Shown: piece by piece, positions 6,331 through 64,000 of the stretch
How the letters are laid out: each line of letters begins with the position of its first letter
Numbering within the stretch: the stretch's first letter is position 1
Assembly: GCF_000763385.1 (NCBI RefSeq)
Contig: NZ_JQFA01000002.1
Coordinates: forward strand, 2,480,001 to 2,544,000
DNA: 64,000 nucleotides
Source of the DNA: Leptolyngbya sp. KIOST-1
Lineage (GTDB): Bacteria; Cyanobacteriota; Cyanobacteriia; Phormidesmidales; Phormidesmidaceae
Direction of reading: 5' to 3'
Notes under the pieces: generated by a model
Seen by the model: the letters and a program-made list of their open reading frames with translations, nothing else
What the model was told of the DNA's origin: nothing
Database searches by the model: none
Translations under genes and position numbers: made by a program

Positions 6331-6357
6331 TGACGAGGCTCCGATGGGGACCGACGC

Positions 6358-49754: not shown

Positions 49755-49936
49755 CCACTCCCCAGACCCTAGACCTACCATTCCCGACCCCAGGAACTTA
49801 TAGACGACAAAATCAGTCAGCAGAAGCTTGGCTGGGCTTGTCTCAGCTTGGGGTTTTGCGGCTGAGCGCTACCCCAGGGGGGGTAACGGCCTCCCCTCCC
49901 TACCGTCTATAGTTCATAGATTGACAATTCCTGCCA

Positions 49937-51598: not shown

Positions 51599-51605
51599 CG
51601 TTCTG

Positions 51606-51788
51606 GATGAGCGGTGGTTGGAGCGAACGCGCCAGTTTGCCATGCATGCGATCGCGCAATACCAGCGCCAGAAGGAGCGCTACGGGCTGGGGCGCTACAG
51701 CCTGTGGACGGGCGATCTGGGCCTGGCCGTCTACCTGTGGCACTGCATCACCACCGAGGCCGACCTGCCCGGCTTAGATGTTGTGTAA
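51606..51788 (+). pseudogene. C-terminal relic of a LanC-like (lanthionine synthetase C) protein
   Basis: In a frame different from the kinase, the ~60 residues ending at the TAA at 51786-51788 read DERWLERTRQFAMHAIAQYQ then RYSLWTGDLGLAVYLWHCIT and finish LPGLDVV. This has the sequence of the C-terminal end of LanC-like proteins, where (S)L(W/F)xGxxG and a terminal (F/L)P(A/G)(F/L)(E/D) are conserved. The upstream part of this frame is only the shadow of the kinase, and no start codon or ribosome site precedes it. So it is a truncated remnant, presumably left by a deletion that joined the kinase to the end of a former neighbour. Confidence 0.7.
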
Positions 51789-51877
51789 AATTTGGAGAAT
51801 TGACGACACGCCCTGGCGCTAGCCGTGCCCGAAGGGCTATCCGCACAGCAATGCACCGCACAGGAATTGAGTGAGCC

Positions 51878-52315
51878 GTGAGCGACGCCTACTCAACTGA
51901 TTTTAGCCAATGGACCCGCCAAACCGCCCAACTGCTGAGGGAGCGGCGCTGGCAAGACATTGACGTGGCCAATTTGATCGACGAGGTGGAAGATTTGGGC
52001 AAAAGTGAGCGACGGGCGATCGCCAGCCAGCTGACCCGCCTTCTACTCCATCTGCTCAAATGGCAATATCAGCCCCAGCGCCGCTCCGATAGCTGGCTCG
52101 ACTCCATTACCGACGCTCGTACCCAGATTCACTTGGCAATTCAGGATAGCCCTAGCCTCAAGGGCTACCCAGCGGAGCAACTCGCAGACTGCTATCGCCG
52201 CGCCCGCCATCAGGCTGCCACCCAAACAAAGCAAGAGCTTTCGGTGTTTCCAGCCACTTGTCAATATGCTTTGGACCTGATTCTGGCCGAAGACTGGCTC
52301 CCAGAGGGCTATTGA
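51878..52315 (+). CDS. DUF29 domain protein
   Basis: A 145-residue helical protein of the DUF29 family, common and often multi-copy in cyanobacteria. Hallmarks are YSTDFSQWTRQTAQLLRERR, the D-rich DVANLIDEVEDLGKSERRAI segment, LTRLLLHLLKWQYQPQRRSDSW and the C-terminal DCYRRARHQAATQTK and DLILAEDWLPEG. The start is a GTG. The function is unknown; some DUF29 genes accompany mobile elements, and a MITE-like end lies 16 bases downstream. Confidence 0.92.
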   Translation: MSDAYSTDFSQWTRQTAQLLRERRWQDIDVANLIDEVEDLGKSERRAIASQLTRLLLHLLKWQYQPQRRSDSWLDSITDARTQIHLAIQDSPSLKGYPAEQLADCYRRARHQAATQTKQELSVFPATCQYALDLILAEDWLPEGY

Positions 52316-52331
52316 CGGCAAGCGGGCAGCG

Positions 52332-52360
52332 GCGTTGCTGAGGGCAGGTATGATGGGTCC
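52332..52360. mobile_element. Degenerate terminal fragment of the MITE-like element
   Basis: GCGTTGCTGA at 52332 followed by GCAGGTATGATG matches the left end of the element at 18618-18646 in 24 of 29 positions. No second inverted end is found before the next gene, so this is a solo or decayed end. Confidence 0.55.
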
Positions 52361-52404
52361 CACTACCCACGCTCTTTTTGTATTGCCAATCACGTTTAAA
52401 ACCC

Positions 52405-53040
52405 ATGATTAAGATGTTTCGCTGTTCCGCACTGCTGCCCCTGGGGCTAACCCTGCTGCTGACGACAGCCGCCTGCACCCGTACCCCAGAGGCTCCCAAT
52501 GCCGAGGGTACCAACCCTGTGGTCACCGATCCGGTGGATCCGGCCCCGGTGGACCCCGCTCCCGCTGACCCGGTGGAGGATACCGAATCGCTGCTCTCCC
52601 TTTCGGGTGAAGGGCTGCAGCTGGTAGGGGACCAGAGCGGTTCAACCGTTACCCTCGCCTTTGGCACCGAAATGACCGTGGTGGAAAATGCCCTCACCCG
52701 GCTGGTGGGGGAACCGATTGAGTCGGGGGAAAACGAGGAATGTGGCGCGGGCCCGCAGGTGATCACCCAGTGGCCCAACGGGCTGGTGCTCCATGCCGCC
52801 AATGGCGAATTTATCGGCTGGTCGGCTCGCCCCGCTACCGACGCCACCCTAACCACCCTGTCCGGCATCGGCATCGGCTCAACCCTCGGTGACTTGGAGG
52901 CGGTTTACACTGTGGACGTGTTCGAGAGCACCCTGGGAACCGAATTTTCCACGGGCGACATGTCTGGTCTGTTGAGTTCTGCCGCACCCGATGCCACAGT
53001 CACCAATCTTTGGGCGGGTACCGTTTGTAACTTCCGCTAG
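52405..53040 (+). CDS. Putative lipoprotein of unknown function
   Basis: A 211-residue protein with a lipoprotein signal: MIKMFRCSALLPLGLTLLLT followed by the lipobox TAAC. A Pro/Asp/Glu-rich stretch follows (DPVDPAPVDPAPADPVEDTE). The mature part is beta-rich with alternating glycines (TVTLAFGTEMTVVENALTRL, GIGIGSTLGDLEAVYTVDVF) and two cysteines (EECGAG and the final TVCNF) that may form a disulfide. The ATG at 52405 gives the best signal peptide; the frame opens at 52378. I do not recognise the family. Confidence 0.75.
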   Translation: MIKMFRCSALLPLGLTLLLTTAACTRTPEAPNAEGTNPVVTDPVDPAPVDPAPADPVEDTESLLSLSGEGLQLVGDQSGSTVTLAFGTEMTVVENALTRLVGEPIESGENEECGAGPQVITQWPNGLVLHAANGEFIGWSARPATDATLTTLSGIGIGSTLGDLEAVYTVDVFESTLGTEFSTGDMSGLLSSAAPDATVTNLWAGTVCNFR

Positions 53041-53055
53041 CCTCTAATCTTTTAA

Positions 53056-53155
53056 TACCGAATCCTAGCTGAACAAACCCGCTTTGTAGGGGCGTAGCGT
53101 GCTACGCCCCTACGGGGTTCCTGGTTATGAATCGGGGTTTACCAAATCGGATTTC
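53056..53155. repeat. Dispersed palindromic repeat, copy B
   Basis: Begins TACCGAATCCT and contains the perfect 13-bp inverted repeat GTAGGGGCGTAGC (53086-53098) / GCTACGCCCCTAC (53101-53113), then ACGGGGTTCCTGGTTATGAATC and CGGATTT. It matches copy A at 29975-30076 in order and sequence. It lies 15 bases beyond the lipoprotein stop. Confidence 0.75.
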
Positions 53156-53186
53156 CTATAACGCCTGGGTAGTCAAATCCAAACAC

Positions 53187-53218
53187 AAAAAAGGTGCTGC
53201 CCCAGTTTGGGGCAGCAC
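53187..53218 (-). terminator. Intrinsic terminator of the DUF2267-like gene
   Basis: GTGCTGCCCC (53194-53203) pairs perfectly with GGGGCAGCAC (53209-53218), loop of five. On the minus strand the stem is followed by a run of T residues (A run at 53187-53192 on the plus strand). It lies 32 bases past the stop of the 53250-53813 gene. Confidence 0.9.
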
Positions 53219-53249
53219 TTATCCAAAAATGAGCGTGAGGGTTAAAACC

Positions 53250-53813
53250 CTAGGCCTGCTGCCAGAGATCGAGAACTTCGCCCTCGGGCATCCAGGTAGC
53301 AATTTCCTGAATTCGCTCCTGCGATAGCTCGGCTTTGGTAGCAGAAAAAACGGCCTTTACAGCCTGGCTGCGGACGGCATATTTGTCCTCTTGGGGTCGC
53401 TTGAGACCGCCTTCGTTTGCGACCCGAAACATGAAGCGATCGGAGTCAATTTTGAAGATGCCAGGGCCTTGCCAGGGTGGACGAACCCGGCTGAGAAATC
53501 CCACCAGGGGATTGGTATCGCGCCACAGTTCAACCACATCCATATGCAGGGACTTGTCGTTGGCATTGGGCAAGGTGTCTTCGTTTTTAAGTTCTTTAGC
53601 CACGCGATCGGCGGCTTCCGTCGTCATCAGATCGCGCATAACGCGAAAGACAATTTCGGTAAAGTCGCGAGCGTCGTAAACATCAGGAAAACCACCTTCG
53701 GTGGCGACTTTCTCCAGAAAGGGGCGATCGCGATCGGCAATTTCAGGGCGGGATGTCTGAGCATTAGCAGGCTCACCACCCGACGGATTATTGGCTTTGG
53801 TAGCATCTACCAT
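53250..53813 (-). CDS. DUF2267-like protein
   Basis: A 187-residue soluble helical protein with two tandem halves. The first reads RDFTEIVFRVMRDLMTTEAA to ELWRDTNPLVGFLSRVRPPW, the second QAVKAVFSATKAELSQERIQ to EIATWMPEGEVLDLWQQ. This arrangement of a degraded helical duplicate with W-(M)-P(E)G-x-x-x-LW resembles DUF2267; the function is unknown. It is expressed alone, judged by its own terminator and the 165-base upstream spacer. The N-terminal ~28 residues are disordered-looking. Confidence 0.7.
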   Translation of the reverse strand: MVDATKANNPSGGEPANAQTSRPEIADRDRPFLEKVATEGGFPDVYDARDFTEIVFRVMRDLMTTEAADRVAKELKNEDTLPNANDKSLHMDVVELWRDTNPLVGFLSRVRPPWQGPGIFKIDSDRFMFRVANEGGLKRPQEDKYAVRSQAVKAVFSATKAELSQERIQEIATWMPEGEVLDLWQQA

Positions 53814-53978
53814 GCTTGTTTCCTTTACTGGTTAACAGCAATAAGCTTCTGAACCAGGTTAAGAAAAATTACGCCAATTCCTTTCCTCCACAGGGATGGA
53901 CTTGCGCAGGTCAAAAGGTAGAGATTGTTAACAAACCGCGCAAGTTCAAGGGCTGTGGACAGTCCAGTCTAGAAACCA

Positions 53979-54719
53979 TCAAAACGGGAAAGGTTTCCAG
54001 GGAATCCACTCGGCCCAGAGGTTGGCCATGGTGCCGTCGGCCAGGGCAGCGGCGATCGCGGCATTGAGGGTGGCATTCAGCGTGGGGTTCTGTTTGGGGG
54101 TGGCGATCGCAAAGGGCACCCGCGTCGGCAGGGTAAAGGCAATTTCCAGCGAGTCGTCATCCTCAGCAGCCACCACCAGCACCAGTTCGTCGTCGATCAG
54201 GGCGTCGATATCCCCCGCCCGCAGGGCCGCCAGCATCTCCGGCAGCACCTGGTCGCTGCCGGGGTAGGGCACCGCCTTCGCCCCCGGGAACCCCTCTACC
54301 AGCGCGATGTTGGTGCTGTCCGCTAGCCCCCCCACCCGCTTGCCTGCCAGGTCGTCGATTGAGGTAATGCCCCTGCCTTTTTTCACCAGCACCGCTTCGT
54401 CAAACAGGCCATAGGGCTGGGTAAACCCTACGACCTGGAGGCGGGCGGGGGTAATCGCCTGGTTGAACCACACCACGTCGTACTGACCGGTACTCAGGCA
54501 GGTGTAGAACTCGGCCATGGGCAGGTTGTGCCATACCGGTGTCAGCCCCAGGGATGCACAGATGGCGCGGGCCAGTTCGGGTTCGTAACCGGTGCGGTGA
54601 CCGTCAGGGGTCAAAAAGCTCATGGGACGGGCATCGAAGTCGCTGGCGGCGATGTGGAGAATTCCAGACTCAACGGTCAGACCGCTTAGAGATTCAGCAA
54701 CGGGTAACGGAGGACACAT
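53979..54719 (-). CDS. Extracellular solute-binding protein family 3 (amino-acid type), lacking a signal peptide
   Basis: A 246-residue periplasmic-binding-protein-fold polypeptide of the polar amino acid type. Visible are ILHIAASDFDARPMSFLTP near the start, GYEPELARAICASLGL, YDVVWFNQAITPARLQVVGF, and IDDLAGKRVGGLADSTNIAL. There is no signal peptide: the homologous part begins at about residue 17, and an in-frame TAA stands 18 bases upstream of the ATG, so a longer form is impossible. It is therefore cytosolic, non-functional for transport, or exported in an unusual way. Its first codons include a 12-base match to the end of the MITE-like element. No permease or ATPase gene is adjacent. Confidence 0.8.
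   Translation of the reverse strand: MCPPLPVAESLSGLTVESGILHIAASDFDARPMSFLTPDGHRTGYEPELARAICASLGLTPVWHNLPMAEFYTCLSTGQYDVVWFNQAITPARLQVVGFTQPYGLFDEAVLVKKGRGITSIDDLAGKRVGGLADSTNIALVEGFPGAKAVPYPGSDQVLPEMLAALRAGDIDALIDDELVLVVAAEDDDSLEIAFTLPTRVPFAIATPKQNPTLNATLNAAIAAALADGTMANLWAEWIPWKPFPF
54691..54702. repeat. 12-bp match to a MITE-like element end inside the solute-binding gene start
   Basis: GATTCAGCAACG at 54691-54702 is identical to positions 18748-18759 in the right terminus of the element at 18610-18770. It covers codons 6-10 of the solute-binding protein, before the conserved domain begins. This may be chance or a remnant of an insertion. Confidence 0.35.
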
Positions 54720-54896
54720 AATCTTTGGGGGGAGAACTTATTATGACAAGTACATCCGGCTCCCCCGGTTTTGTCAACAAAGTCGTGCTCGATTCGGCCT
54801 GGTGAGTTGGTGAAACCTAACGCTGGATCTAGCCTGTTGGGTTCCGCTAGCGCTCCACCCAACCTACGACTTTGCTCCAGCTGATCGCTCCCGTAG

Positions 54897-54913
54897 GGTG
54901 GGCATTGCCCACC
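54897..54913. repeat. 17-nt palindrome GGTGGGCATTGCCCACC
   Basis: The same palindrome as at 2203-2219 except for the central base, preceded by CGTAG (the reverse complement of the CTACG that follows the first copy). Another inverted pair, GTTGGGT and ACCCAAC, is close by at about 54836-54863. Both lie in the 284-base spacer upstream of the dioxygenase-like gene (54720-55003), which otherwise shows no gene. Confidence 0.6.
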
Positions 54914-55003
54914 ACATCTGGATTCTTGTCAATCAACCTTCTCCTAAGGCCAGTCAAGTCTCTCCCGTTCCTGTGTTTCCTGCACCCAGACCATCTGTTT
55001 GCA

Positions 55004-55900
55004 ATGGACTATCAACCGATTCAACTCACCCCCGAGCAGATTCAGCAGTTCCAGGAGGACGGCTTTTTGATCCTGGAAAACTTTCTGCCGTCCGACTACG
55101 CCCAGCGCCTAGCCGATCGCCTGGAGCCCATGTTCCACGGCGAGTTTGAGACCGGCATTTTCCCCGACGAGTGGCACTGGCGACCGCGCATGAGCCTGCC
55201 CGACATCACCCGCGAAATCTGCAACGGCTGGAAGAGCGATCGCACCATCGCCAGCCTGGTGCTCTCCTCAGAAATTGGTCGCCTCAGCGCCATGCTAGCT
55301 GGGTGGGACGGGGCCAGAATTGGCCAGGACAGCCTGTGGATGAAGCCGCCCAATGCCCAGGCGATCGCCATGCACCAGGACGGTGTCTACATCGACTACC
55401 TCAACCCCGCCGAGATGATGACCTGCTGGGTCGCCCTAGACCGCGCCACCGCCGCCGACGGCACCCTGGTCTATGCCAAGGGCTCCCACAAATGGCCGAT
55501 TTCCAGCGTTGAAGGCGAGTTCCATGCCCCCACCAAGGACTACCGCTGGGCCATGCTGCAAGCGGCAGAGAATGCGGGAGTGACCGAACCCGAGCTGGTT
55601 GTGGTCGATATCCCCGCCGGGGGCTGCGCCTTCCACCATGGGCGCACCTGGCACGGCCTTGGCCCCACCACCCGCACCGAGGGTATGTTCCGCAGCATTG
55701 GGTTGCACACGATTCCCGCCAGCGCCCAGTTCCACCCCACCAACCCCCAGGGCTACATCTACGGTCGCTACAAGCGGGTGGGCAATACAGAAATGGATGA
55801 GAGTTTTTTCCCCATTCTCTGGCGCGAAGACGGCTACCGCAGTCCGCACCTAGCGGAGTATTGCAAAGATCCGCTGGGGGCGGCGATGGCGATCGCGTGA
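55004..55900 (+). CDS. Phytanoyl-CoA dioxygenase (PhyH) family protein
   Basis: A 298-residue Fe(II)/2-oxoglutarate-dependent oxygenase of the PhyH type. Iron ligands are the HxD pair His124/Asp126 in AIAMHQDGVYIDY and the distal histidine, probably His217, in HHGRTWHGLGP; an arginine for 2-oxoglutarate follows (TRTEGMFR). It begins with a typical QIQQFQEDGFLILENFLP segment. The frame opens at 54872, but the ATG at 55004 is the natural start. Such enzymes hydroxylate acyl-CoA, amino acids, or small molecules, so the substrate is open. It is the first of three same-strand genes with an acyl-CoA-dehydrogenase-like and an amine oxidase gene. Confidence 0.88.
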   Translation: MDYQPIQLTPEQIQQFQEDGFLILENFLPSDYAQRLADRLEPMFHGEFETGIFPDEWHWRPRMSLPDITREICNGWKSDRTIASLVLSSEIGRLSAMLAGWDGARIGQDSLWMKPPNAQAIAMHQDGVYIDYLNPAEMMTCWVALDRATAADGTLVYAKGSHKWPISSVEGEFHAPTKDYRWAMLQAAENAGVTEPELVVVDIPAGGCAFHHGRTWHGLGPTTRTEGMFRSIGLHTIPASAQFHPTNPQGYIYGRYKRVGNTEMDESFFPILWREDGYRSPHLAEYCKDPLGAAMAIA

Positions 55901-56019
55901 TGACCTTAAATTCCGGTCGCTGAGCTTGTCGAAGCGTGGATTGGTGGCGTAGTACCCCGGTGGTGGGTTACGGCCAGGTCTCAAGCGATCGCCAACCCCA
56001 CAGTTATCTAAGGCCTAAC

Positions 56020-56075
56020 CCACCCACCCATCCACCCTCCCACCCGCCAACCCATCCACCCCCCTACCCATCCAC
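56020..56075. repeat. Octamer array, seven units, ending four bases before a start codon
   Basis: Seven consecutive 8-base units fit CCNYCYAC or differ at one position (CCACCCAC, CCATCCAC three times, CCTCCCAC, CCGCCAAC, CCCCCTAC), and the array stops four bases before the ATG at 56080. It replaces the expected purine-rich ribosome-binding site. The array at 29804-29851 has the same consensus on the other strand. Confidence 0.85.
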
Positions 56076-56079
56076 CCCT

Positions 56080-57504
56080 ATGTCCACCAAAACCTGGAAC
56101 GGTCTCCCTTTTACCGGCCTCAGCGAAGACTTCGACCCCCAGTGGCTGCTGACGCCCGAGCAGCAGGTGCTTCAGTCAAAGCTGATTGAACTATGCGCGG
56201 CGGTACTCAGGCCCAATGCGATCGCCTCCGATCGCGGCCTGATCTACCCCCGCGAGAATTTCAAAGCCCTGGCTTCCCTGGGGTTGCTCAGCCTGTTTGT
56301 GCCCAAGGAGTGGGGCGGCCTGGGGGAAAACCACATTTGCGCCGCCATGGTGGTAGAAACGATCGCCCGCTACGGCTGCCCCAGCACGGCGATGTGCTAC
56401 ACCATGCACCTGGGGGCGGTGGCGGCGGCCCTGTTCCGCGCCCACGACAGCCCGGAATTGCAGGGTTTGCTGAAGCGGCTGGACAGCGAGGTGCTGATCG
56501 GCACGCTTTCCTATTCCGATCCCGAGACGGGCTCCCACTTCTGGTACCCCGTTTCGTCTAAGGCGACGGCCACCCCCGATGGCTGGCAGGTGAACAAAAA
56601 GGCGTCGTGGACCACCTCGGCGGGGTTTGCCGACTGGTACATTGTCCAGACCACCAGCCCCCACTTCAACGGCGATTTCTCTGACCTGTCGTGCTTTTTG
56701 ATCTACGCGGAGGAAGTCCAGGCCGAACCCCACAAATGGGACGCCCTGGGCCTGCGTGGCAACCAGTCGGGCACGCTGCTGGTGGATGGGGTGACGGTAC
56801 CGCGCGATCGCATGGTTGGCCCCGAAGGCGACGGCACCGCCAGCAATGACGAGATCGTCGATCCGTTCTTTTTGCTCTGCTCGTCGGCCTGCTGGAACGG
56901 CATTGCCCTGGGGGCGATCGACATTGCCAGGGGCCACGTCACCCGCAAAAAGCACGTGGATGTGGGCATGCGGGTAGCGGATTATCCGACGATTCAAGAC
57001 TACTTCGGTGAGGCGATCATGGACACCACCGCCTGCCGCATGTTCACCTTCTCCATGGGCCAGCTGATGGATCAGCTCACCAACGGCTGCGACTGGGCGA
57101 TCCACGCCGATGTGACGGCCCTGCCCCGCGCCGCCTACCTGCACTGGTACTGGCAGATCAAGTTTGAGGCCGCTAAGAATGTGGCCCACGTCTGCGACAA
57201 AATGCTCCACGCCTGCGGCGGTTCCGGCTTCAAAAAAGACATGGAGATCGAGCGCTACCTGCGCGACGGCAAGGCGGGCTGGGTGATGGGGCCGACCAAC
57301 GAGGTGCTGCGCCAGTTCGTTGGCAAGTCGGCCCTGCTGGGCTTCGACGCACTTGACTACTGGAACCAGTCGGTGAACGAGCGGGTGCTGCACAACGAGC
57401 TAAAGAAAATGGACGCCGATGCCAAGCGCAAGCTAGCCGAGGCGCTGCTGGCGGATCTGGAGGAGGCCGAAAAACCCACCCCGATTCCCGTCGCCGCCGC
57501 GTAG
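56080..57504 (+). CDS. Acyl-CoA dehydrogenase-like flavoprotein
   Basis: A 474-residue ACAD-fold flavoprotein. The N-terminal helical domain (LTPEQQVLQSKLIELCAAVL, LGLLSLFVPKEWGGLG), the middle beta domain starting TLSYSDPETGSHFWYPV, then KASWTTSAGFADWYIVQT, and the C-terminal helical domain with VADYPTIQDYFGEAIMD and CDKMLHACGGSGFKKDMEIERYLRD are evident. The frame extends to 55936 through a proline/histidine-rich stretch produced by the octamer array, so I use the ATG at 56080. True acyl-CoA substrate is uncertain: the family also includes nitroalkane and amine-type oxidases and hydroxylases. It follows the PhyH-like gene by 179 bases and precedes the amine oxidase. Confidence 0.87.
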   Translation: MSTKTWNGLPFTGLSEDFDPQWLLTPEQQVLQSKLIELCAAVLRPNAIASDRGLIYPRENFKALASLGLLSLFVPKEWGGLGENHICAAMVVETIARYGCPSTAMCYTMHLGAVAAALFRAHDSPELQGLLKRLDSEVLIGTLSYSDPETGSHFWYPVSSKATATPDGWQVNKKASWTTSAGFADWYIVQTTSPHFNGDFSDLSCFLIYAEEVQAEPHKWDALGLRGNQSGTLLVDGVTVPRDRMVGPEGDGTASNDEIVDPFFLLCSSACWNGIALGAIDIARGHVTRKKHVDVGMRVADYPTIQDYFGEAIMDTTACRMFTFSMGQLMDQLTNGCDWAIHADVTALPRAAYLHWYWQIKFEAAKNVAHVCDKMLHACGGSGFKKDMEIERYLRDGKAGWVMGPTNEVLRQFVGKSALLGFDALDYWNQSVNERVLHNELKKMDADAKRKLAEALLADLEEAEKPTPIPVAAA

Positions 57505-57522
57505 CGTACTTTCCGCTGCCCC

Positions 57523-57585
57523 AGAACTCGGGGTTCTGCGGTAAACCCACATCCTCTGGCACGCCCGAGAAGAACCCCGAGTTCT
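57523..57585. repeat. Perfect 15-bp inverted repeat after the acyl-CoA dehydrogenase gene
   Basis: AGAACTCGGGGTTCT at 57523-57537 is the exact reverse complement of AGAACCCCGAGTTCT at 57571-57585, with a 33-base loop. It begins 18 bases after the stop and is followed by TTTCCT. It may attenuate transcription before the amine oxidase gene, or be a palindromic repeat like that at 2073-2140. Confidence 0.75.
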
Positions 57586-57691
57586 TTCCTCACGGCCTTC
57601 TCCATCCTGCCTCTTTATCCCCCGTACGGGCGCACAGCCGTGCGCCCCTCCCCCCCAACGCCAACCCAACTACCCCACCGGAGCGTATCCC

Positions 57692-59623
57692 ATGACCATT
57701 GCCCAAGAGCGTCCTACCACTGTCTCCATCGCCCACCCCCTCGAACCCCTTACCCCTGGGGAGATCGCCGCCGCCGTCGCCATCCTGCGCCAGGAAAAAT
57801 CCCTGGGGGCCAGCACCCGCTTTGCCACCGTCACCCTGAACGAACCAGCCAAGGAAACGGTGCTGGGCTTCAGGCCGGGGGATGCGATCGTGCGGGAAGC
57901 CTTTGCGATCATTCTCGACAACGCCACCGCCCAGACCTACGAGGCGATCGTCTCGCTCACCGAAGGCACCGTGATCTCTTGGAAACACATTCCCAATGTG
58001 CAGCCGCCGATCATGCTGGATGAGTTTTTGGAGTGCGAGAATGCGGTCAAGGCTTGCCCAGAGTTCATTGAGGCGATCGCCAAGCGCGGCATCACCGATA
58101 CCAGCCTGGTGATGGTTGACCCCTGGTCTGCGGGTAACTACGGCGTTGCTGACGAAGAGGGCGTGCGCCTCTCCCGCGCCCTCTGCTGGGTGCGGGCCAA
58201 CCCCACCGACAACGGCTACGCCCGCCCCATCGAAGGCGTCATCCCCGTGGTTGACCTCAACAAAATGGAGGTCATCCGGGTCGAAGACCACGGCGTGGTG
58301 CCCCTGCCGCCCAACTCCGCCAACTACTCCCAGGAGTACATCAAAAACTTCCGCACCGACCTCAAGCCCCTGGAGATCATCCAGCCCGAAGGCCCCAGCT
58401 TCACCGTCGAGGGCCACCAGATTTCCTGGCAGAAGTGGAAAATGCGCATCGGCTTCACCCCCCGCGAGGGGCTGGTGCTCTACACCGTCAGCTATACCGA
58501 CGGCGGCGAAGAGCGGCCCATTCTCTACCGCGCCTCCCTGGCGGAAATGACCGTGCCCTACGGCGACCCCCAGCCCCACCACTACCGCAAAAACGCCTTT
58601 GATGTGGGCGAGTACGGCGTCGGCACCCTGGCCAACTCCCTCAAGCTGGGCTGCGACTGCCTGGGCGAAATCCGCTACTTCGACGCCTTTATGACCAACT
58701 CGCGGGGCGAGGTGGCCCAGATCGAGCACGCCGTCTGCCTCCACGAAGAAGACTTTGGCATTCTCTGGAAGCATGTGGACTGGCGCACGAATGAGACCGA
58801 GGTAAGGCGATCGCGCCGCCTGGTGGTTTCCTTCATCGCCACCGTGGGCAACTACGAGTACGGCTTTTTCTGGTACTTCTACCAAGACGGCACCATTCAG
58901 TACGAGGTCAAGCTCACCGGTATGCTCAGCACGGCGGCTTTCCCCTCCGGCGAAGTGCCCAAGTACGGCACCCTGATCGCCCCGCAGCTCTACGCCCCCG
59001 CCCACCAGCACATCTTCAACGTGCGGATGGATATGTGCATCGACGGCATGCAGAACTCGGTGTATGAGGTGGATGTGGAACCCGAGGAAGACGAAACCCT
59101 CAACCCCTACGGCAACGCCTTCTACGCCAAGTCCACCCTGCTTACCACCGAACAGCAGGCCCAGCGGCTGATCGACCCCATGAAGGCCCGCTACTGGAAG
59201 ATCGTCAACCCCAACGAGACCAACGCCGCGGGCTACCCCACCGCCTACAAGCTGATGCCCGGCGAAAACACCCTGCCCCTGGCTCGCCCCCACGCCAGCG
59301 TGATCAACCGCGCCACCTACATGACCAAGCACCTGTGGGTGACCCCCTACGCCCCCGACGAGAAGTTCCCGGCGGGCGATTACCCCAACCAATCGCCTGG
59401 GGGTGAAGGGCTGCCCAAGTGGACCGAGGGCGATCGCCCCGTGGACAACACCGACTTGGTGGTGTGGTACACCTTTGCCCACACCCACATTCCCCGCGCC
59501 GAAGATTGGCCGGTGATGCCCACCGCCTATATTGGCTTCATGCTCAAGCCGCTGAACTACTTCGACGAAAACCCCGCCAACGACGTGCCCCCGGCGGCTA
59601 GCAAACACAGCTGCTGCAACTAA
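57692..59623 (+). CDS. Primary-amine oxidase (copper amine oxidase)
   Basis: A 643-residue copper/TPQ enzyme that converts RCH2NH2 to an aldehyde, ammonia and hydrogen peroxide. The self-processed topaquinone tyrosine is Tyr388 in ATVGNYEYGFFW (NYE/DY motif). The catalytic base is Asp304 in NAFDVGEYGVG. Copper ligands are His438 and His440 in PAHQHIFNVRMD and the third histidine in FAHTHIPRAEDWP. A C-terminal SKHSCCN with two cysteines is unusual. There is no signal peptide, so unlike many bacterial forms it should be cytosolic; a GGAG site precedes the ATG. The enzyme is rare in cyanobacteria in my experience. Its substrate may be a monoamine, diamine or arylamine. Confidence 0.92.
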   Translation: MTIAQERPTTVSIAHPLEPLTPGEIAAAVAILRQEKSLGASTRFATVTLNEPAKETVLGFRPGDAIVREAFAIILDNATAQTYEAIVSLTEGTVISWKHIPNVQPPIMLDEFLECENAVKACPEFIEAIAKRGITDTSLVMVDPWSAGNYGVADEEGVRLSRALCWVRANPTDNGYARPIEGVIPVVDLNKMEVIRVEDHGVVPLPPNSANYSQEYIKNFRTDLKPLEIIQPEGPSFTVEGHQISWQKWKMRIGFTPREGLVLYTVSYTDGGEERPILYRASLAEMTVPYGDPQPHHYRKNAFDVGEYGVGTLANSLKLGCDCLGEIRYFDAFMTNSRGEVAQIEHAVCLHEEDFGILWKHVDWRTNETEVRRSRRLVVSFIATVGNYEYGFFWYFYQDGTIQYEVKLTGMLSTAAFPSGEVPKYGTLIAPQLYAPAHQHIFNVRMDMCIDGMQNSVYEVDVEPEEDETLNPYGNAFYAKSTLLTTEQQAQRLIDPMKARYWKIVNPNETNAAGYPTAYKLMPGENTLPLARPHASVINRATYMTKHLWVTPYAPDEKFPAGDYPNQSPGGEGLPKWTEGDRPVDNTDLVVWYTFAHTHIPRAEDWPVMPTAYIGFMLKPLNYFDENPANDVPPAASKHSCCN

Positions 59624-59703
59624 GGGGGGAGACGTGCTTCCAGTCGCCCTGAGGTACAAAATCGAGTGTTTTTTCGATCTCGATTAAGGACTGGGCTTTG
59701 GTT

Positions 59704-59739
59704 TTGTTGGTCCTGAGGTTATGCCATCAGGACCAACAA
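59704..59739. terminator. Bidirectional stem-loop between convergent genes
   Basis: TTGTTGGTCCTGA (59704-59716) and TCAGGACCAACAA (59727-59739) form a perfect 13-bp stem with a ten-base loop. It lies midway between the stops of the amine oxidase (59623) and the creatininase-like gene (59763). No long T tract follows on either strand, so it may act as a bidirectional terminator or an RNA-stabilising stem. Confidence 0.6.
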
Positions 59740-59762
59740 CGATGCTATCGTGCGTCGTATCC

Positions 59763-60512
59763 TCACTCCGCCGCCAAAAAGGCCAGATAGTCGCTGGTTA
59801 GCTCTTTCACCGCCGCCTCGTAGAGCTGCTGCCCGTGCTCGGGGGTGGCCAGGGCGGGATTTGAACCCATACGGCCATCGGGGTAGTGCTGGCGAAAATC
59901 AGTAGGGCTGTAAATGGCGTGCCCTCTGGGGGCAACCTGCGGCTCCAGGGGGGCGTGCTTGATGAAATCGGGATAGGCGTACTGGGTCAGGGCCACCTCG
60001 CTGGGGGTGGCGTGGGAGCCCTCCTGGTCGCCGTATAGATCCTTGGCCAGGGTATAGACCGACTGGGCCATAAACCAGTTGGCCGTCTTGCAGCGTACCC
60101 GCTCAGCGTTGGGAATGCGATCGGCGGCCAGGGCACTGTAGGTTTCGGCAAAGGCGGCCTTGAGGGTGGCGATGTTGCCGCCGTGGCCGTTGATAAAAAA
60201 GAAGCGGGTAAAGCCGTAGCGTACCAGGGGGGTGAGATAGTCCTGAATCAGCGCGATCAGGGTGGTGGGGCGCAGGGTCATGGAGCCGGGAAAGGCCGTG
60301 TGGTGCAGGGCCATGCCGACATTGATGGTGGGACCAACCAGGGCCTCGGCAGCGTCACCAACCCCTTTGGCGACGACTTCAGCACAGATGGCGTCGGTGC
60401 CAATCAGGCCGGTGGGGCCATGCTGCTCGGTTGAACCAATCGGCAGAATGATGCCCGTCGATCGGGTCAAATAGGTCTCAACTTCAGGCCACGTACAGAG
60501 GTGGAGCAGCAT
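59763..60512 (-). CDS. Creatininase family amidohydrolase-like protein
   Basis: A 249-residue metal-dependent protein of the creatininase fold. Metal ligands are in ILPIGSTEQHGPTGLIGTD (Glu/His/Asp), INGHGGN (His) and the glutamate of GSHATPSEVALTQY. The family includes creatinine amidohydrolase, FAPy deformylase and the MftE peptidase of mycofactocin synthesis. No other mycofactocin gene is present, so an amide-hydrolase role is the better guess. The ATG at 60512 (MLLHLCTWPE) fits the family beginning. It faces the amine oxidase gene and might act on a related nitrogen compound, which is inference. Confidence 0.87.
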   Translation of the reverse strand: MLLHLCTWPEVETYLTRSTGIILPIGSTEQHGPTGLIGTDAICAEVVAKGVGDAAEALVGPTINVGMALHHTAFPGSMTLRPTTLIALIQDYLTPLVRYGFTRFFFINGHGGNIATLKAAFAETYSALAADRIPNAERVRCKTANWFMAQSVYTLAKDLYGDQEGSHATPSEVALTQYAYPDFIKHAPLEPQVAPRGHAIYSPTDFRQHYPDGRMGSNPALATPEHGQQLYEAAVKELTSDYLAFLAAE

Positions 60513-60884
60513 AGGGCAGGGCGGCAAGGGCTAGGGTTTCACTATAGCGCTCACGTCTGGCCTCGTAGGAGGGATGATTGTATGACTGGTTACACTGTGG
60601 GGATAGATTCACTGATAAGAGAGAGGTGGTGCGCAGCCTGCCCCAGGTGATTAGGCTGACGGGTTCCCTGGGAATATTAAGGTACAGACCCAGAATTAGC
60701 TAAGATCATGAGCGACGGATCATCTACCCAAGGGCTGAAGCGTAAGTTTATTGGGAGCCATACCAATCCACGGCACCAAACCAAAGCCGCCACCTGAAAT
60801 GCTGCCCAAGAGCAGCCAGAGACCGCTCCTGTTCGCCATCTGGGCGATACGAGCGTTGATGTTACCTGTGAAGGAGACGCGACT
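60513..60884. other. 372-bp divergent spacer
   Basis: Lies between the start of the creatininase-like gene (minus) and the start of the 60885 gene (plus), so it holds both promoters. No gene or strong hairpin was found. A GAAGGAG ribosome-binding sequence sits eight bases before the ATG at 60885. Confidence 0.5.
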
Positions 60885-61196
60885 ATGCTACACCGCAAGA
60901 TCTATCAACTCTGTTGTGATGGTCAAGATGTGTGGATTTTTCTACGGGATCAACAGCGTTGGATTGAGCGGGCCAAAATTTTAGACATCGAAGGGGACCT
61001 GGTAACCTTCCGCTACGAGACGGAGGAAGACGACGAGATTTGCTCCTGGGAGGAGATGGTGCGCCTGGAGAGCATTGGCGCTGTCACCAAGCGTCTGGCG
61101 GCGGTACCCCGGGGCGATGTCGAACTCCACGTCTCTGAGGATTGCCCCGAAACCGAGCAGCTCAGCGATCCCTACCCAGAATCAAACGCCGACTAG
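60885..61196 (+). CDS. Small conserved cyanobacterial protein, function unknown
   Basis: A 103-residue protein with a beta-rich, SH3-like-looking core (KIYQLCCDGQDVWIFLRDQQ, RAKILDIEGDLVTFRYETEE, EICSWEEMVRLESIGAVTKR) and an acidic C-terminal tail. A strong GGAG ribosome-binding site precedes the ATG. I believe it belongs to a cyanobacterial family (perhaps DUF6679, not verified). No partner gene is apparent. Confidence 0.75.
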   Translation: MLHRKIYQLCCDGQDVWIFLRDQQRWIERAKILDIEGDLVTFRYETEEDDEICSWEEMVRLESIGAVTKRLAAVPRGDVELHVSEDCPETEQLSDPYPESNAD

Positions 61197-61210
61197 GGTA
61201 GCTATCCATG

Positions 61211-61250
61211 AATGAATCGATGGCCCACGAAATGAATCGATGGCCCACGA
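61211..61250. repeat. Perfect 20-bp tandem duplication
   Basis: AATGAATCGATGGCCCACGA occurs twice in a row (61211-61230 and 61231-61250), just after the stop of the preceding gene. It is probably a replication slippage product. Confidence 0.9.
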
Positions 61251-61366
61251 GCATTGGTTCGGGGCCATTCGAGGTTACACCTTCACCTGGTTTTTGACTT
61301 GGGCATAGCAAGCCTAATGGGGGAGGGGTTGCAGCCAGCCCTGAGAACAATCCACGGAGGACGAGT

Positions 61367-62386
61367 TCAATTGGGTGGCCCGCTGGGGTCTGCGAAGGTG
61401 TTGATATAACCATTACCTGTGTAGACGCCCGGGGGGCGGGGGGCCGAGAAGGGCGGTGGCACAGGCTGGGGCGGCAGGGTGATGCTGGGCAGGGTGCCCG
61501 GTGACCCTGCGGGCGATCGCACCTCTACACTCCCGGCGGGTGCCGTTACCGGAGCACCGAAATCGAGATTGAGCCCGGCTGGGGCGATCGCTTCAGTCTG
61601 GGGTGCCGTTACCCCTGGGGCTGGCGCGATCGCCGCTGGCGGGGTGTAGCCCGTTGTGCCCGGTGGCGGCGACATCTGCGGCGTGGTGCGAATAAAGCGC
61701 TGATCAACTCCCGGCAGGCTCCCTTCTACCATCCAGGGTAGGGGCGTCAGCCCGCTGGGTGCCTCTTCGCCAGGGGCGCTGGCCTCTGCCCTGGGCACCC
61801 CCACGGGGTTTGCACTGGAGGCTGGGCTGCTGCTGCCACTGAGTCGTTCGGCCAGAGCCTGCTGAAGCGGGCTGGGGGGAAGTGCCGTTGGGGTAGCGGG
61901 GGAGAGGCCTGGTCGCTGGCCCGCCGCTGGTTCGGTCCCGGCCTCGACGCTGGGGCTAAAGCGAAACCGATGGCGCTCCAGGTACTGGGCGAAGGGGCTG
62001 GCGGGTGAGGTTTCTGTAGAGCCTGGTGGGGGGGGCTGAACGGTGGCTGGGGGCAGAGCCAGACGGTCGGGGGCGGCGGGTTGTTCTAGTGCTGTGGCGG
62101 TAGTGGGCTGCAGCTGGTTGAGCAGCAGAGCCAGGTTGTCAATTTCCGCCAGGTCGGCCAGATCTTCACTGGACAGCGCGCCCAGATCGGTGCCGGGGGT
62201 GAGGGTTGGACTCTCGGTGCTGCCGTTGTACCGGCTGCGCCACTCGGGATGACGCAGGTACTGGGGCACCACCACCGCCCCCAGCCCCAGTGCCGCCAGG
62301 ATGCCCCACACCGCCGGACGCCGGAGGGGGCGGCTGACGGCCTGGAGGCGCACCAGGCGATAGCGTATAGCGGGGGGAAGGGCCAT
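61367..62386 (-). CDS. Proline-rich membrane-anchored hypothetical protein
   Basis: A 339-residue protein with one N-terminal membrane segment (VWGILAALGLGAVVVP, residues ~26-41) preceded by a basic cytosolic start (YRLVRLQAVSRPLRRP). The rest is a low-complexity extracytoplasmic stretch rich in Pro, Ala, Ser and Thr, with a few conserved-looking islands: FAQYLERHRFRFSPSVE, TPLPWMVEGSLPGVDQRFI and a terminal PRPPGVYTGNGYINTFADPS. I do not recognise it. It lies 137 bases downstream of tilS on the same strand. Confidence 0.65.
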   Translation of the reverse strand: MALPPAIRYRLVRLQAVSRPLRRPAVWGILAALGLGAVVVPQYLRHPEWRSRYNGSTESPTLTPGTDLGALSSEDLADLAEIDNLALLLNQLQPTTATALEQPAAPDRLALPPATVQPPPPGSTETSPASPFAQYLERHRFRFSPSVEAGTEPAAGQRPGLSPATPTALPPSPLQQALAERLSGSSSPASSANPVGVPRAEASAPGEEAPSGLTPLPWMVEGSLPGVDQRFIRTTPQMSPPPGTTGYTPPAAIAPAPGVTAPQTEAIAPAGLNLDFGAPVTAPAGSVEVRSPAGSPGTLPSITLPPQPVPPPFSAPRPPGVYTGNGYINTFADPSGPPN

Positions 62387-62523
62387 GGTCGAAGGGCGGG
62401 TGAAGCGGCAACGCCTTTTATTTTAGAACCTCCTTTAAAACCTCTCATCCACCATTGCTAAACCCAGGGCCGCTGCCCATGCTCATCCTGGGGCCGGTCG
62501 GCCTGTATCTTCAGGATCCCCAC

Positions 62524-63522
62524 TTACCGACTCACCTCTACCCAATCCCCCTGCACTACCGCAATCGCTCCACCGGGGAACGGGTCGCTCTGGCTGCCGT
62601 TGGGGGCTACCAGCAGGGCCACCAGTTTTTCCACGTGGTCAAAGCCCACCTGGGCCACCGTTGCCTGCTGGAGCACGCGCCGCAGCACCCGTCGCTGTAG
62701 AGCCAGGGGAGCCGCCCTGAGGGGCGATCGCTGAATTTTCCAGCCTCCGCCGTCGGTGGCCGGGGGCGTAACCGCCGCCGCGTGGAGTTCCGCCGCCAGC
62801 GTTTCCAGTAGATCGACCTCAGCGGCCAGGACCTCCGCCGTGTGGGCCAGGGTCATTTCTAAGCCTGGGTTGAAGTGCGATCGCAGGTAGGGCAGCAGCT
62901 CCAGGCGAATGCGGTTGCGGGCGTAGCGGGTGTCCTGGTTGGTGGCATCCTGCCAGACGGGAAGGTCGAACTGGCGGCAAAATTCCCCGGTTTGCTGGCG
63001 GGTGAGGGCCAGCAGGGGGCGCACCACAGCAACAGCGCTATTGGGCGCTAGGGGCCGCTGCCAGGCCAGGGCCTGCAGGCCATCGGTGCCGCTGCCCCGC
63101 AGCAGATTGTAGAGCAGGGTTTCGGCGCGATCGCTAGCCGTATGCCCCGTCGCCACATGGGTACAGCCTGCTTGTGTCGCCACCTCGGCAAACACCCGGT
63201 AGCGCCACTGGCGAGCGGCGGCCTCGGTGGCGCAGGGGAGCTCAGCGATCGCCCGATGGCAAGGAATGCCCCACGCCTGGCACAGCTCCTGCACAAACTG
63301 GGCGTTGGCCCCAGAGTCGGCCCGCCACTGGTGGTCGCAGTGCACCACCCGCAGCGACCAGCCCCACCTGGGCCGTAAATCGACCAGCAGCCTGAGCAGA
63401 CAGAGCGAATCTTGACCGCCCGAAACCGCCGCCAGCACCCTTGCCCCCTGGGGCAGCAGGGAGCGGTCTTTAAGCTGTTGATGCACCGCCGCGTGGGTGG
63501 TGCTCCAGGAACCGCCGCCCAT
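62524..63522 (-). CDS. tilS: tRNA(Ile)-lysidine synthase
   Basis: A 332-residue N-type ATP pyrophosphatase that turns C34 of the tRNA-Ile CAU anticodon into lysidine, an essential step in decoding AUA. The PP-loop SGGQDS is at residues 34-39, and further hallmarks are THVATGHTASDRAETLL and the arginine-rich RYARNRIRLELLPYLR. The length fits the shorter cyanobacterial form, which lacks the full C-terminal domain of Escherichia coli TilS. The gene starts with ATG at 63522. Confidence 0.93.
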   Translation of the reverse strand: MGGGSWSTTHAAVHQQLKDRSLLPQGARVLAAVSGGQDSLCLLRLLVDLRPRWGWSLRVVHCDHQWRADSGANAQFVQELCQAWGIPCHRAIAELPCATEAAARQWRYRVFAEVATQAGCTHVATGHTASDRAETLLYNLLRGSGTDGLQALAWQRPLAPNSAVAVVRPLLALTRQQTGEFCRQFDLPVWQDATNQDTRYARNRIRLELLPYLRSHFNPGLEMTLAHTAEVLAAEVDLLETLAAELHAAAVTPPATDGGGWKIQRSPLRAAPLALQRRVLRRVLQQATVAQVGFDHVEKLVALLVAPNGSQSDPFPGGAIAVVQGDWVEVSR

Positions 63523-63631
63523 GCCCTAACCCGCCACCTAGAGGATTGAACGTCTGTTTTTCTAAGCTACCCTACCGCCGCCGTTTCGCCAGGTTTGGCC
63601 GTCAACGCCCCTCCGGATGGGGCTGAATCTC

Positions 63632-63663
63632 CCAAAAATCTGTGGCGCCAAAAATCTGTGGCA
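63632..63663. repeat. 16-bp tandem repeat, two copies
   Basis: CCAAAAATCTGTGGCG and CCAAAAATCTGTGGCA lie head to tail in the divergent spacer between tilS and the right-edge gene. It could provide paired binding sites, but nothing else supports that. Confidence 0.75.
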
Positions 63664-63721
63664 CACTTGGGGCAACGGCACCTTTTTGCATCTCCGCACC
63701 CTTTGAACGGCATGGCGACCC

Positions 63722-64000
63722 ATGGCTCAACCATACCAAACGCTCATCGACGATATTGTGGCCGCAACCCTCAAGGGCAAAATTCAGTCGAAGCAGCAGG
63801 TTTACCGCATGCTGCAGGCCGGGGTAGAGCCGGGCAGTGGGGAACTGTTCGAGCGAACCCTAGCCGCTACCCTGGCCGCCCTGGAGCCGGATTTGGCCCC
63901 CGGCGATGACGAGTTTAAACACGCCAAAGCCGTGCGTAAACACCGGGCCCTGCGGACAATTCAGGGGGAGTGGCAGCGCTGGCAGGCCGACAACCAGGCG
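63722..64000 (+). CDS. Unidentified protein, 3' end cut by window edge
   Basis: An open frame of 93 codons runs from the ATG at 63722 off the right edge. The N-terminus reads MAQPYQTLIDDIVAATLKGK, then IQSKQQVYRMLQAGVEPGSG, ELFERTLAATLAALEP and a basic helix KAVRKHRALRTIQGEWQRWQ. It is helical, without a signal peptide or membrane segment. I have an impression of large cyanobacterial proteins starting this way, but I cannot name a family from this portion. Confidence 0.65.
   Translation, partial: MAQPYQTLIDDIVAATLKGKIQSKQQVYRMLQAGVEPGSGELFERTLAATLAALEPDLAPGDDEFKHAKAVRKHRALRTIQGEWQRWQADNQA

Follow-up and report, generated by a model that had tools for sequence, protein, structure and literature searches.

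Gene content of the locus

The window, that is the whole 64,000-nucleotide stretch of the Leptolyngbya sp. KIOST-1 genome analysed here, contains the following neighbouring genes:

53979..54719, minus strand: protein with an amino-acid-type solute-binding-protein fold (SBP; PF00497, 2.2e-26), divergent from PhyH
55004..55900, plus strand: PhyH-type Fe(II)/2-oxoglutarate (2OG) oxygenase (PF05721, 8.5e-20)
56080..57504, plus strand: ACAD-fold flavoprotein (PF02771, 7.1e-15; middle domain PF02770 at 30.1 bits, below the 33.3 cut-off)
57692..59623, plus strand: copper/topaquinone amine oxidase (CAO), AGAO-like (PF01179, 8.9e-171; NCBIfam primary-amine oxidase NF008559, 995 bits, cut-off 651)
59763..60512 or 60527, minus strand: creatininase-family protein (PF02633, 8.5e-68), convergent neighbour of CAO

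Pfam and NCBIfam matches confirmed that the PhyH, ACAD, CAO and creatininase genes named in a preliminary description, together with the binding-protein-like gene upstream, are real. On the plus strand, PhyH, ACAD and CAO are separated by gaps of 179 and 187 bp. A promoter and terminator scan revealed no more signals than shuffled sequence, and hence a PhyH-ACAD-CAO operon is not demonstrated. No RNA family reached the gathering score in positions 47000-64000 of the window or in four related loci, and neither ACAD (1e-60) nor PhyH (1e-20) had a match on plasmids.

Conservation of the gene set

In a sample of 386 cyanobacterial genomes from 143 genera, ACAD was found in two genomes and PhyH in five. 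The reading that the set is not conserved, taken from these counts, was overturned by a scan of genome contigs for ACAD that reached MAGs and close relatives. Among the 80 best ACAD loci (29 cyanobacterial, 51 non-cyanobacterial), PhyH, ACAD and CAO occur together at eight (L051, L055, L057, L059, L060, L071, L075 and L121), and SBP is also present at seven of these. L051, with a 95% identical ACAD, is the cluster of Nodosilinea nodulosa PCC 7104. Such loci hold methylated-amine genes, in line with the earlier proposal of an amine-processing locus.

The creatininase-family protein, to which release or trimming of an amide had been ascribed, has to be removed from this picture. The gene scores 228.7 bits against PF02633 (cut-off 31.3) and 93.5 against the NCBIfam creatininase equivalog (cut-off 235). 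Its convergent position here, and its closeness to SBP in L055 (0.8 kb) and L057 (5 kb), would fit a protein trimming an amide for the oxidases. However, it is present in 147 of the 386 cyanobacterial genomes and yet at only 2 of the 80 best ACAD loci. CAO and creatininase genes within 0.2 Mb on one contig were found in the window genome only, a count in which pairs on separate contigs of draft genomes are not judgeable. This distribution rules out membership; the creatininase is an ordinary bystander outside the system, and amide trimming on behalf of the oxidases can hardly be its role.

Tdm and other methylated-amine genes accompany ACAD

A Tdm-type (TMAO demethylase) gene is present at 56 of the 80 best ACAD loci and elsewhere in 16 of 20 further genomes. 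Three non-cyanobacterial copies were tested, and all passed the curated cut-off of 1100 (1212, 1281 and 1261 bits). In the window genome, Tdm, a gene for a small protein of unknown family and a divergent gene of the ammonium-transporter (Amt) family lie on the contig of the ACAD cluster, ∼106 kb further downstream:

L131:15374-17290: Tdm of the window genome (DUF1989 + GCV_T + GCV_T_C)

Among NCBIfam models, TMAO demethylase fits this protein best (787 bits, below the 1100 cut-off); the match covers model positions 147-763, and ∼146 N-terminal positions are missing. The neighbouring small protein was rejected as the missing N-terminal part (profile comparison probability 0.1). Tdm is present in 3 of the 386 cyanobacterial genomes, the window genome being one, and all three are among the five with PhyH (hypergeometric 1e-6, uncorrected for relatedness). 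Genome G005 carries ACAD, Tdm and the small gene as fragments; its Amt, MgsABC, PhyH, the GS-like gene and CAO are apparently whole. At L062, PhyH and Tdm are fragmentary and ACAD and CAO whole. Independent distribution in relatives, which the preliminary description would have counted against a common function, was found for creatininase and in part for CAO, which also occurs alone, but not for PhyH, ACAD and Tdm.

Searches of the window genome yielded no match for Tmm (G011 was positive in the same search), for the heme-dependent N-demethylase HODM (PF11927; the genome of L118 was positive) or, at 1e-70, for the N-methylglutamate synthase gene MgsC. The earlier remark that no described pathway with this set was known needs correction: the set relates to aerobic trimethylamine (TMA)/TMAO catabolism, though it uses enzymes other than those described for that pathway.

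The ACAD-fold flavoprotein as a candidate TMA monooxygenase

The ACAD fold was confirmed by structure comparison (Foldseek E 1.2e-16; VIA Z 40.9, 370 aligned, rmsd 2.9 versus human SCAD). The underlying model has an overall pLDDT of 76.7, and the active-site end (residues about 380-430) is near 50-60. Gly404 and Phe263 occupy the usual alignment positions of the catalytic Glu, which we take to be those of the YEGT-type motif and of the IVD type, and both residues are invariant in 27 sequences. Among solved structures, the closest are ordinary acyl-CoA dehydrogenases and not group D monooxygenases; the flavin monooxygenase 5z8t ranks 14 and XiaF (5lvu) 41, behind dehydrogenases. Profile matches include DnmZ (4zxv) and 3m9v/4kcf, presumably KijD3.

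A flavin reductase gene is found at 40 of the 51 non-cyanobacterial ACAD loci (40 of 80 overall) and at none of the 29 cyanobacterial ones; at 32 of the 80 best loci, a reductase of HpaC/HsaB type lies within 700 bp of ACAD. The Xanthobacter and Zoogloea orthologues have a flavin reductase beside them. The window genome has six PF01613 (flavin reductase) matches, none close to ACAD. Tmm is present at 2 of the 80 best ACAD loci (L088 and L104, which hold both genes) and was above cut-off in none of seven ACAD genomes searched. Conversely, G011 and G121 contain Tmm, PhyH and Tdm, and no ACAD was found there at 1e-40. Locus L118 combines a GMAS-like gene, MgsABC, a TMAO permease, a DMA monooxygenase, ACAD, a flavin reductase and Tdm. 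This leaves the oxidation of TMA to TMAO as the early step for which no known gene is present there. On balance, it is fairly likely that the ACAD-fold protein is a two-component flavin monooxygenase converting TMA to TMAO in Tmm's place; such an unrecognised enzyme probably opens the pathway here and in numerous further bacteria. Evidence against it comes from the dehydrogenase-like nearest structures, the low model confidence at the active-site end, the lack of reductase genes at cyanobacterial loci and the two loci with both Tmm and ACAD.

A different assignment would have ACAD and flavin reductase act on dimethylamine or a related N-methyl amine in organisms that begin from imported TMAO. 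In its favor, 22 of the 80 best ACAD loci carry TMAO-permease-like genes, and no HODM was seen at the two loci with both Tmm and ACAD. However, HODM genes for dimethylamine are present at 25 of the 80 best loci and would make such an ACAD redundant. Moreover, ACAD decayed along with Tdm in G005, where the genes of later steps stayed. We consider this assignment quite unlikely.

The copper amine oxidase

Alignment of CAO with Arthrobacter AGAO recovered the motifs GNYEYG, HQH, HTHIPR and FDVGEY, corresponding to topaquinone, copper ligands and base; we take the Tyr of NY(D/E) to form the topaquinone, three His to bind copper and the Asp to be the base. No signal peptide was seen. CAO had been called unusual in this phylum, which is roughly right: it is present in 42 of the 386 genomes and 28 of the 143 genera, a few copies being fragmentary. 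At the 80 best ACAD loci it was found 14 times.

Many cyanobacteria have CAO and lack the rest of the cluster, mostly without PhyH, Tdm or ACAD. The best PDB relatives are phenylethylamine oxidases, and the unlinked copies in L031 and L032 adjoin amino-acid permeases. These observations would fit a general primary amine oxidase for aromatic amines or polyamines, its position just partly tied to the pathway. Linkage argues against this: 13 of the 14 linked copies share the strand of ACAD and sit no more than 500 bp away from it, and all eight tested ACAD genomes without CAO at the locus have it elsewhere. Furthermore, MgsC is present in one of eight CAO-linked genomes versus six of eight others (Fisher p 0.04), as if CAO substitutes for MgsC. 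A general oxidase therefore appears unlikely to us, and we give methylamine oxidase, as a candidate function, about an even chance.

PhyH and its SBP partner

In an alignment of 18 PhyH sequences, the metal ligand H124 is present in all and D126 and H217 in 17; the window copy has all three. It also has R230, presumably the 2OG arginine ∼11-13 residues past the distal His (position taken from PHYH), where 8 of the 18 sequences have His or Asn. Fold matches are 2OG oxygenases, with SnoN and MysH ahead, proline hydroxylase from rank 18 and EctD at rank 49. PhyH was found solely in cyanobacteria in this analysis.

SBP and PhyH are both present at 15 other related loci, adjoining and divergent at 13. 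By eye, no signal peptide was seen in the N-termini of the window SBP and its orthologues, and the protein is therefore probably cytosolic. None of the ten proteins examined was an ABC permease or ATPase. NtcA-type GTAN8TAC boxes occur in 6 of 14 SBP-PhyH intergenic regions (300 base shuffles: mean 0.8, maximum 5); the window's own region and seven others have none.

HODM genes are found in G011, in the genome of L075 and in G005 (4 kb from PhyH), and hence PhyH is not the sole candidate for dimethylamine there. An HODM-type gene near PhyH in L042 makes PhyH less likely to be a demethylase of free dimethylamine. PhyH may instead demethylate a gamma-glutamyl (di)methylamide: a GS-like ligase would attach the amine to glutamate, the cytosolic SBP-like partner would hold the product, and glutamine would finally result. 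In favor of this scheme, free dimethylamine is already covered by HODM in the three PhyH genomes above. A GS-like ligase (GS5a) occurs at 11 cyanobacterial SBP-PhyH-type loci and adjoins MgsABC in L094 and L096; the copies are 74-88% identical to that of L065. At L042, the genes after PhyH encode a type III GS/GMAS-like ligase (591 bits, cut-off 469.6) and a member of the gamma-glutamyl hydrolase family (C26), and the amino-acid hydroxylases among the fold matches also fit. Yet GS5a was not found in the 64-kb window, and of the 49 loci listed, L041 and L042 alone showed the C26 gene cluster. We regard the gamma-glutamyl scheme as somewhat unlikely. That the candidate PhyH works at the dimethylamine stage in some form, free or as the gamma-glutamyl amide, is possible, with slightly less than an even prospect.

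A proposed two-part gene set for methylated-amine nitrogen

The following proposal builds on what was observed, namely gene identities, linkage and co-occurrence, the loss of the catalytic Glu and, in one genome, the joint decay of genes; the substrates of all pathway enzymes are inferred. It is likely that the cluster serves a methylated-amine (TMA-type) nitrogen pathway. SBP-PhyH-ACAD-CAO would be one half of the gene set of this Nodosilinea-like host, and Tdm, the small protein and Amt the other. ACAD would oxygenate trimethylamine to TMAO with reduced flavin from an unlinked reductase, replacing the FMO-type Tmm. Tdm would cleave TMAO, yielding dimethylamine plus a one-carbon unit that is passed to folate or freed as formaldehyde. 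The next demethylation would fall to PhyH, with free dimethylamine or the gamma-glutamyl amide formed from it as substrate, and CAO would turn methylamine into ammonia, formaldehyde and H2O2. As a whole, this two-part set with its four-step route is the explanation we favor, with moderate confidence.

More tentatively, ACAD may represent a second, so far overlooked entry enzyme for aerobic TMA oxidation, a two-component flavin monooxygenase of the ACAD fold. Cyanobacteria would have rebuilt the pathway further, adding a copper methylamine oxidase and an Fe/2OG N-demethylase whose substrate may be a gamma-glutamyl amide. On the same tentative reading, the range of the entry enzyme would take in Cyanobacteria, Xanthobacter, Zoogloea, Rhodospirillales, Latescibacterota, Gemmatimonadota, Acidobacteria and an archaeal MAG.

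Methylated amines are an important organic nitrogen pool, and tmm, tdm, dmm and gmaS are used as markers of users. If ACAD makes TMAO from TMA, tmm-based surveys miss a group of soil, freshwater and mat bacteria. Phototrophs would likewise gain a route to trimethylamine nitrogen, of which the literature searched reports none for cyanobacteria. In the passages covered, SAR11 is reported with Tdm but without DmmABC (PMC5520151). PhyH would be one candidate answer to this recurring gap, though found here only in cyanobacteria.

Comparison with known systems

In the passages covered, aerobic TMA oxidation in Ruegeria pomeroyi and Methylocella silvestris is described as proceeding by Tmm, Tdm, DmmDABC, GMAS and NMGS (PMC7574528, PMC5520151, PMC13390433). 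As far as these passages go, the clusters compared share Tdm-type, permease/Amt-type, GntR-type regulator and N-methylglutamate genes, and the logical order of steps is the same. Unlike that pathway, the window genome is without detected Tmm, HODM and MgsC (1e-70) and has the ACAD-fold flavoprotein, PhyH and CAO instead; unlike the hosts compared, its own is photosynthetic. Neither a cyanobacterial version of the pathway nor an ACAD-fold TMA monooxygenase is reported in the open literature covered (among others PMC13352529, PMC7574528, PMC5520151, PMC13390433, PMC5023230), which takes in few subscription papers and no bioRxiv preprints.

With group D two-component flavin monooxygenases (HsaA, DszC, DnmZ type), the window ACAD shares the ACAD fold and the absence of the dehydrogenases' catalytic Glu. 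As in those systems, most non-cyanobacterial ACAD loci have an HpaC/HsaB-type flavin reductase gene; unlike them, the window protein is closer in sequence and fold to true acyl-CoA dehydrogenases. We know of no group D member shown to oxidise TMA.

The PhyH of the window has the fold and metal ligands of PHYH, EctD, SnoN and MysH. It differs in that the 2OG Arg is not kept in all orthologues, in having no CoA or ectoine context and in its pairing with an SBP-like gene. CAO resembles the Arthrobacter P1/AGAO family in its full motif set and in passing the NCBIfam primary-amine oxidase cut-off. According to the passages covered of PMC5023230, the Arthrobacter P1 methylamine oxidase is a copper/topaquinone enzyme, and genes for both TMA monooxygenase and copper methylamine oxidase are reported in Arthrobacter methylotrophs. 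Unlike the P1 enzyme, the window CAO sits in a cyanobacterial TMA-type cluster with a different TMA-oxidising candidate. Overall, the cluster appears to be a variant of the known TMA/TMAO pathway with a new candidate enzyme assignment for ACAD.

The locus and its creatininase neighbour

The preliminary description proposed an amine-processing locus of PhyH, ACAD, CAO and creatininase genes with a binding protein upstream. All four are present, and the binding-protein-like gene lies divergently beside PhyH.

53979-54719, minus strand: SBP, binding-protein-like, divergent from PhyH
55004-55900, plus strand: PhyH, Fe(II)/2-oxoglutarate oxygenase
56080-57504, plus strand: ACAD-like, acyl-CoA-dehydrogenase-fold flavoprotein
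57692-59623, plus strand: CAO, copper amine oxidase
59763-60512, minus strand: creatininase family

The window (G000:C2:2480001-2544000) belongs to a 6.3-Mb genome. The top-ranked ACAD match outside this genome comes from Nodosilinea nodulosa PCC 7104 (95% identity). Among 386 sampled genomes of the phylum, CAO was found in 42, PhyH in 5 (E <= 1e-20) and ACAD in 2 (E <= 1e-40), one of them a fragment. Because creatininase relatives (E <= 1e-40) occur in 147 of the 386 genomes and at 2 of 80 ACAD loci, the creatininase-family gene (CREATININASE) is a bystander outside the system. The proposed amine locus is real and conserved, but creatininase was wrongly counted as a member.

Genes accompanying ACAD

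Contigs were scanned with the window ACAD as query, and the best 80 of 106 confirmed loci were kept. These loci (numbered L) and 20 control stretches were searched with 22 reference proteins, using bit-score thresholds of our own choice. Many contigs are short, so that presence counts at ACAD loci are lower bounds. At the 29 oxygenic cyanobacterial loci we found TMAO demethylase-type genes (Tdm, 16), SBP (15), PhyH (14), CAO (14), c11 (a small protein next to Tdm, 14), ammonium-transporter family genes (Amt, 13), the glutamine-synthetase-like ligase GS5a (8), gamma-glutamylmethylamide-synthetase-type ligases (GMAS-like, 3), creatininase (2) and the N-methylglutamate synthase gene MgsC (1). Flavin reductase, heme-dependent dimethylamine N-demethylase (HODM) and FMO-type trimethylamine monooxygenase (Tmm) were found at none of the 29. 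The 51 other loci, in which L107 (Obscuribacterales) and L079 (Armatimonadetes MAG) were placed, carried Tdm (40), flavin reductase (40), HODM (25), TMAO permease (21), MgsC (11), GMAS-like (6), Amt (5), GS5a (3), Tmm (2) and c11 (1), and neither PhyH nor CAO was found there. PhyH, ACAD and CAO occur together at 8 of the 80 loci.

Gene names were taken from family models. The flavoprotein of L040 scores as Tmm (798 bits against a cut-off of 675), the small flavoprotein of L098 is PF01613 (HpaC/HsaB-like), and HODM alpha (PF11927) is present in L092. Three genes of L068, encoding glutamate-synthase-like, GXGXG and class II amidotransferase proteins, were labelled MgsCBA; the Mgs names are assigned by us and by no family model. 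An ACAD and flavin reductase pair is found with Tdm in L107, a MAG of a non-photosynthetic cyanobacterial relative. The same pair is found in L130, a Euryarchaeota MAG, where Tdm was not found.

ACAD as a candidate TMA monooxygenase

Five observations indicate that ACAD is probably a TMA monooxygenase, converting TMA to TMAO. First, L118 contains GMAS-like, MgsABC, TMAO permease, HODM with its reductase, ACAD, flavin reductase and Tdm genes in one locus. N-methylglutamate dehydrogenase aside, this inventory lacks a known gene for the early step, TMA to TMAO, and ACAD with flavin reductase could take that place. Second, Tmm occurs at 2 of the 80 ACAD loci and above cut-off in none of 7 ACAD genomes, two of which gave weak matches below it. 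Genomes G011 and G121 do have Tmm (the G121 copy recognised by its 68% identity), together with SBP, PhyH and Tdm, and ACAD was not found in either at 1e-40. Third, the protein has the ACAD fold, but both known catalytic-glutamate positions are replaced (Gly404 and Phe263), invariantly in 27 sequences 64-95% identical to the window ACAD; the assignment is from sequence alignment, the structure model having low confidence in that region. Fourth, one study (PMC13352529) describes oxidation of DMS, the analogous sulfide, by two-component monooxygenases, with group C and D candidates screened. Fifth, in one stretch of genome G005, ACAD, Tdm and c11 are fragmentary, while the adjacent MgsABC, Amt, MOSC and GntR genes are apparently whole. 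GS5a-SBP-PhyH-GMAS and CAO are found elsewhere in G005. This decay is a natural record of the loss of the TMA-to-DMA part only. In the G005 contig stretch L044 (G005:C125), the decayed ACAD, Tdm and c11 lie at 5890-6663 and 10326-11180, next to N-methylglutamate and Amt genes that appear intact.

Several points speak against a TMA monooxygenase. The solved structures closest to ACAD are dehydrogenases, and Tmm and ACAD are both present in L088 and L104. Cyanobacterial loci have no linked flavin reductase, G000 having six PF01613 matches elsewhere. In L062, ACAD and CAO are whole but PhyH and Tdm are fragmentary.

Tdm and a second cluster in the genome

The DUF1989+GcvT protein matches the NCBIfam TMAO demethylase in L078, L092 and L104 (1212, 1281 and 1261 bits, cut-off 1100). 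The cyanobacterial copies in L065 and L066 score 830 and 807 bits, under this cut-off, and their N-terminal part is absent. These two and the copy of the window genome (L131) lack roughly the N-terminal 146-155 positions of the model. G000 carries its Tdm at C2:2645.4-2650 kb, ~106 kb from CAO, in a group with c11, an Amt-family gene and a gene for a small membrane protein; in L054 and L058 the same order follows CAO. Searches of G000 for Tmm, HODM and MgsC (the last at 1e-70) returned no match.

L131:15374-17290: Tdm, without the N-terminal part of the TMAO demethylase model, like the L065 and L066 copies
L131:18267-19664: Amt-family protein, beside Tdm, then a small membrane protein

Since the Amt-family protein scores 214.7 bits against an NCBIfam amt cut-off of 343.3, it may carry methylated ammonium instead of ammonium, and it is a candidate transporter of methylated amines. 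The c11 protein (170-190 aa) follows cyanobacterial Tdm and matches no Pfam or NCBIfam model. Profile comparison ruled it out as the missing N-terminal part.

Twenty-four ACAD loci had no Tdm in reach. Of these, 21 were chosen for a genome search, which covered 20; L052, L061 and L062 (which has Tdm fragments) were left out. Tdm was found elsewhere in the genome for 16 of the 20, among them G394 with a contig-end piece and G400 with two pieces, and not for L059, L094, L116 and L130. In the phylum sample Tdm (E <= 1e-60) occurs in 3 of 386 genomes (G000, G011 and G121), all among the five with PhyH (chance 1e-6, hypergeometric, kinship uncorrected).

PhyH, SBP and the dimethylamine step

SBP orthologues occur at 18 other loci examined, with PhyH in 15; the two are adjacent and divergent in 13, on the same strand in L069 and far apart in L121. 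In L067 and L076, SBP was found and PhyH was not. By eye, no signal peptide was visible at the N-termini of the orthologues. Perhaps this SBP-fold protein is a cytosolic sensor, carrier or enzyme and not part of a transporter.

HODM was not found in 7 of 9 cyanobacterial genomes tested; G011 and the genome of L075 have it, and G005, outside those nine, has one 4 kb from PhyH. In G121, Tmm, Tdm, PhyH and a GMAS-like gene are present and HODM was not found, which argues that dimethylamine is handled there by something other than HODM, with PhyH as candidate. The gene order of L042, where a GMAS-type ligase and then a gamma-glutamyl-hydrolase-family gene follow PhyH, opens the alternative that PhyH acts at the gamma-glutamyl stage. 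The metal ligands of PhyH are intact, and 8 of 18 sequences have another residue in place of the 2OG arginine. L043 (G300:C57) has two tandem PhyH relatives (9023-10823, 46% each); in the 9023-9898 copy, metal-ligand positions D126 and H217 are occupied by Asn and Arg. GS5a (L065:3923-5422 and orthologues) is 74-88% identical across cyanobacteria, is also part of the MgsABC clusters at L094 and L096, and scores below the type III GS cut-off. It is possibly an amine-glutamate ligase of a separate kind.

CAO linkage

The CAO motifs align with Arthrobacter AGAO. Where CAO is linked to ACAD, the two are no more than 500 bp apart at 13 of 14 loci, and all 8 tested ACAD genomes without a linked copy have an unlinked one. 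MgsC was found in 1 of 8 linked and 6 of 8 unlinked genomes (p 0.04; small, related sample), as would be expected if CAO replaced the N-methylglutamate route. CAO has other uses, since some cyanobacteria carry it and none of the remaining genes, with two such copies lying beside amino-acid permeases. These two unlinked copies (L031, with an M20 peptidase-family gene too, and L032) suggest other primary-amine substrates there.

Regulation

Exact GTAN8TAC boxes (the NtcA-type consensus) are present in 6 of 14 SBP-PhyH intergenic regions, which are related and so non-independent (300 base shuffles: mean 0.8, maximum 5). None was found in the other eight, the window's included. Within the window, no box was found upstream of PhyH, ACAD or CAO; one exact box lies within 60513-60812, upstream of the creatininase gene. 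Several ACAD-locus clusters include GntR-type genes. In Ruegeria, tmm is reported to be under a GntR repressor (PMC13390433).

Comparison with known pathways

The open literature searched, which excludes most subscription papers and bioRxiv preprints, showed no report of TMA catabolism by the proposed route in cyanobacteria, nor any TMA monooxygenase with an ACAD fold. The best reading of the window locus is a methylated-amine nitrogen pathway that has been rebuilt, a known pathway in new form. The most valuable part of this reading is ACAD as a proposed new enzyme for TMA oxidation.
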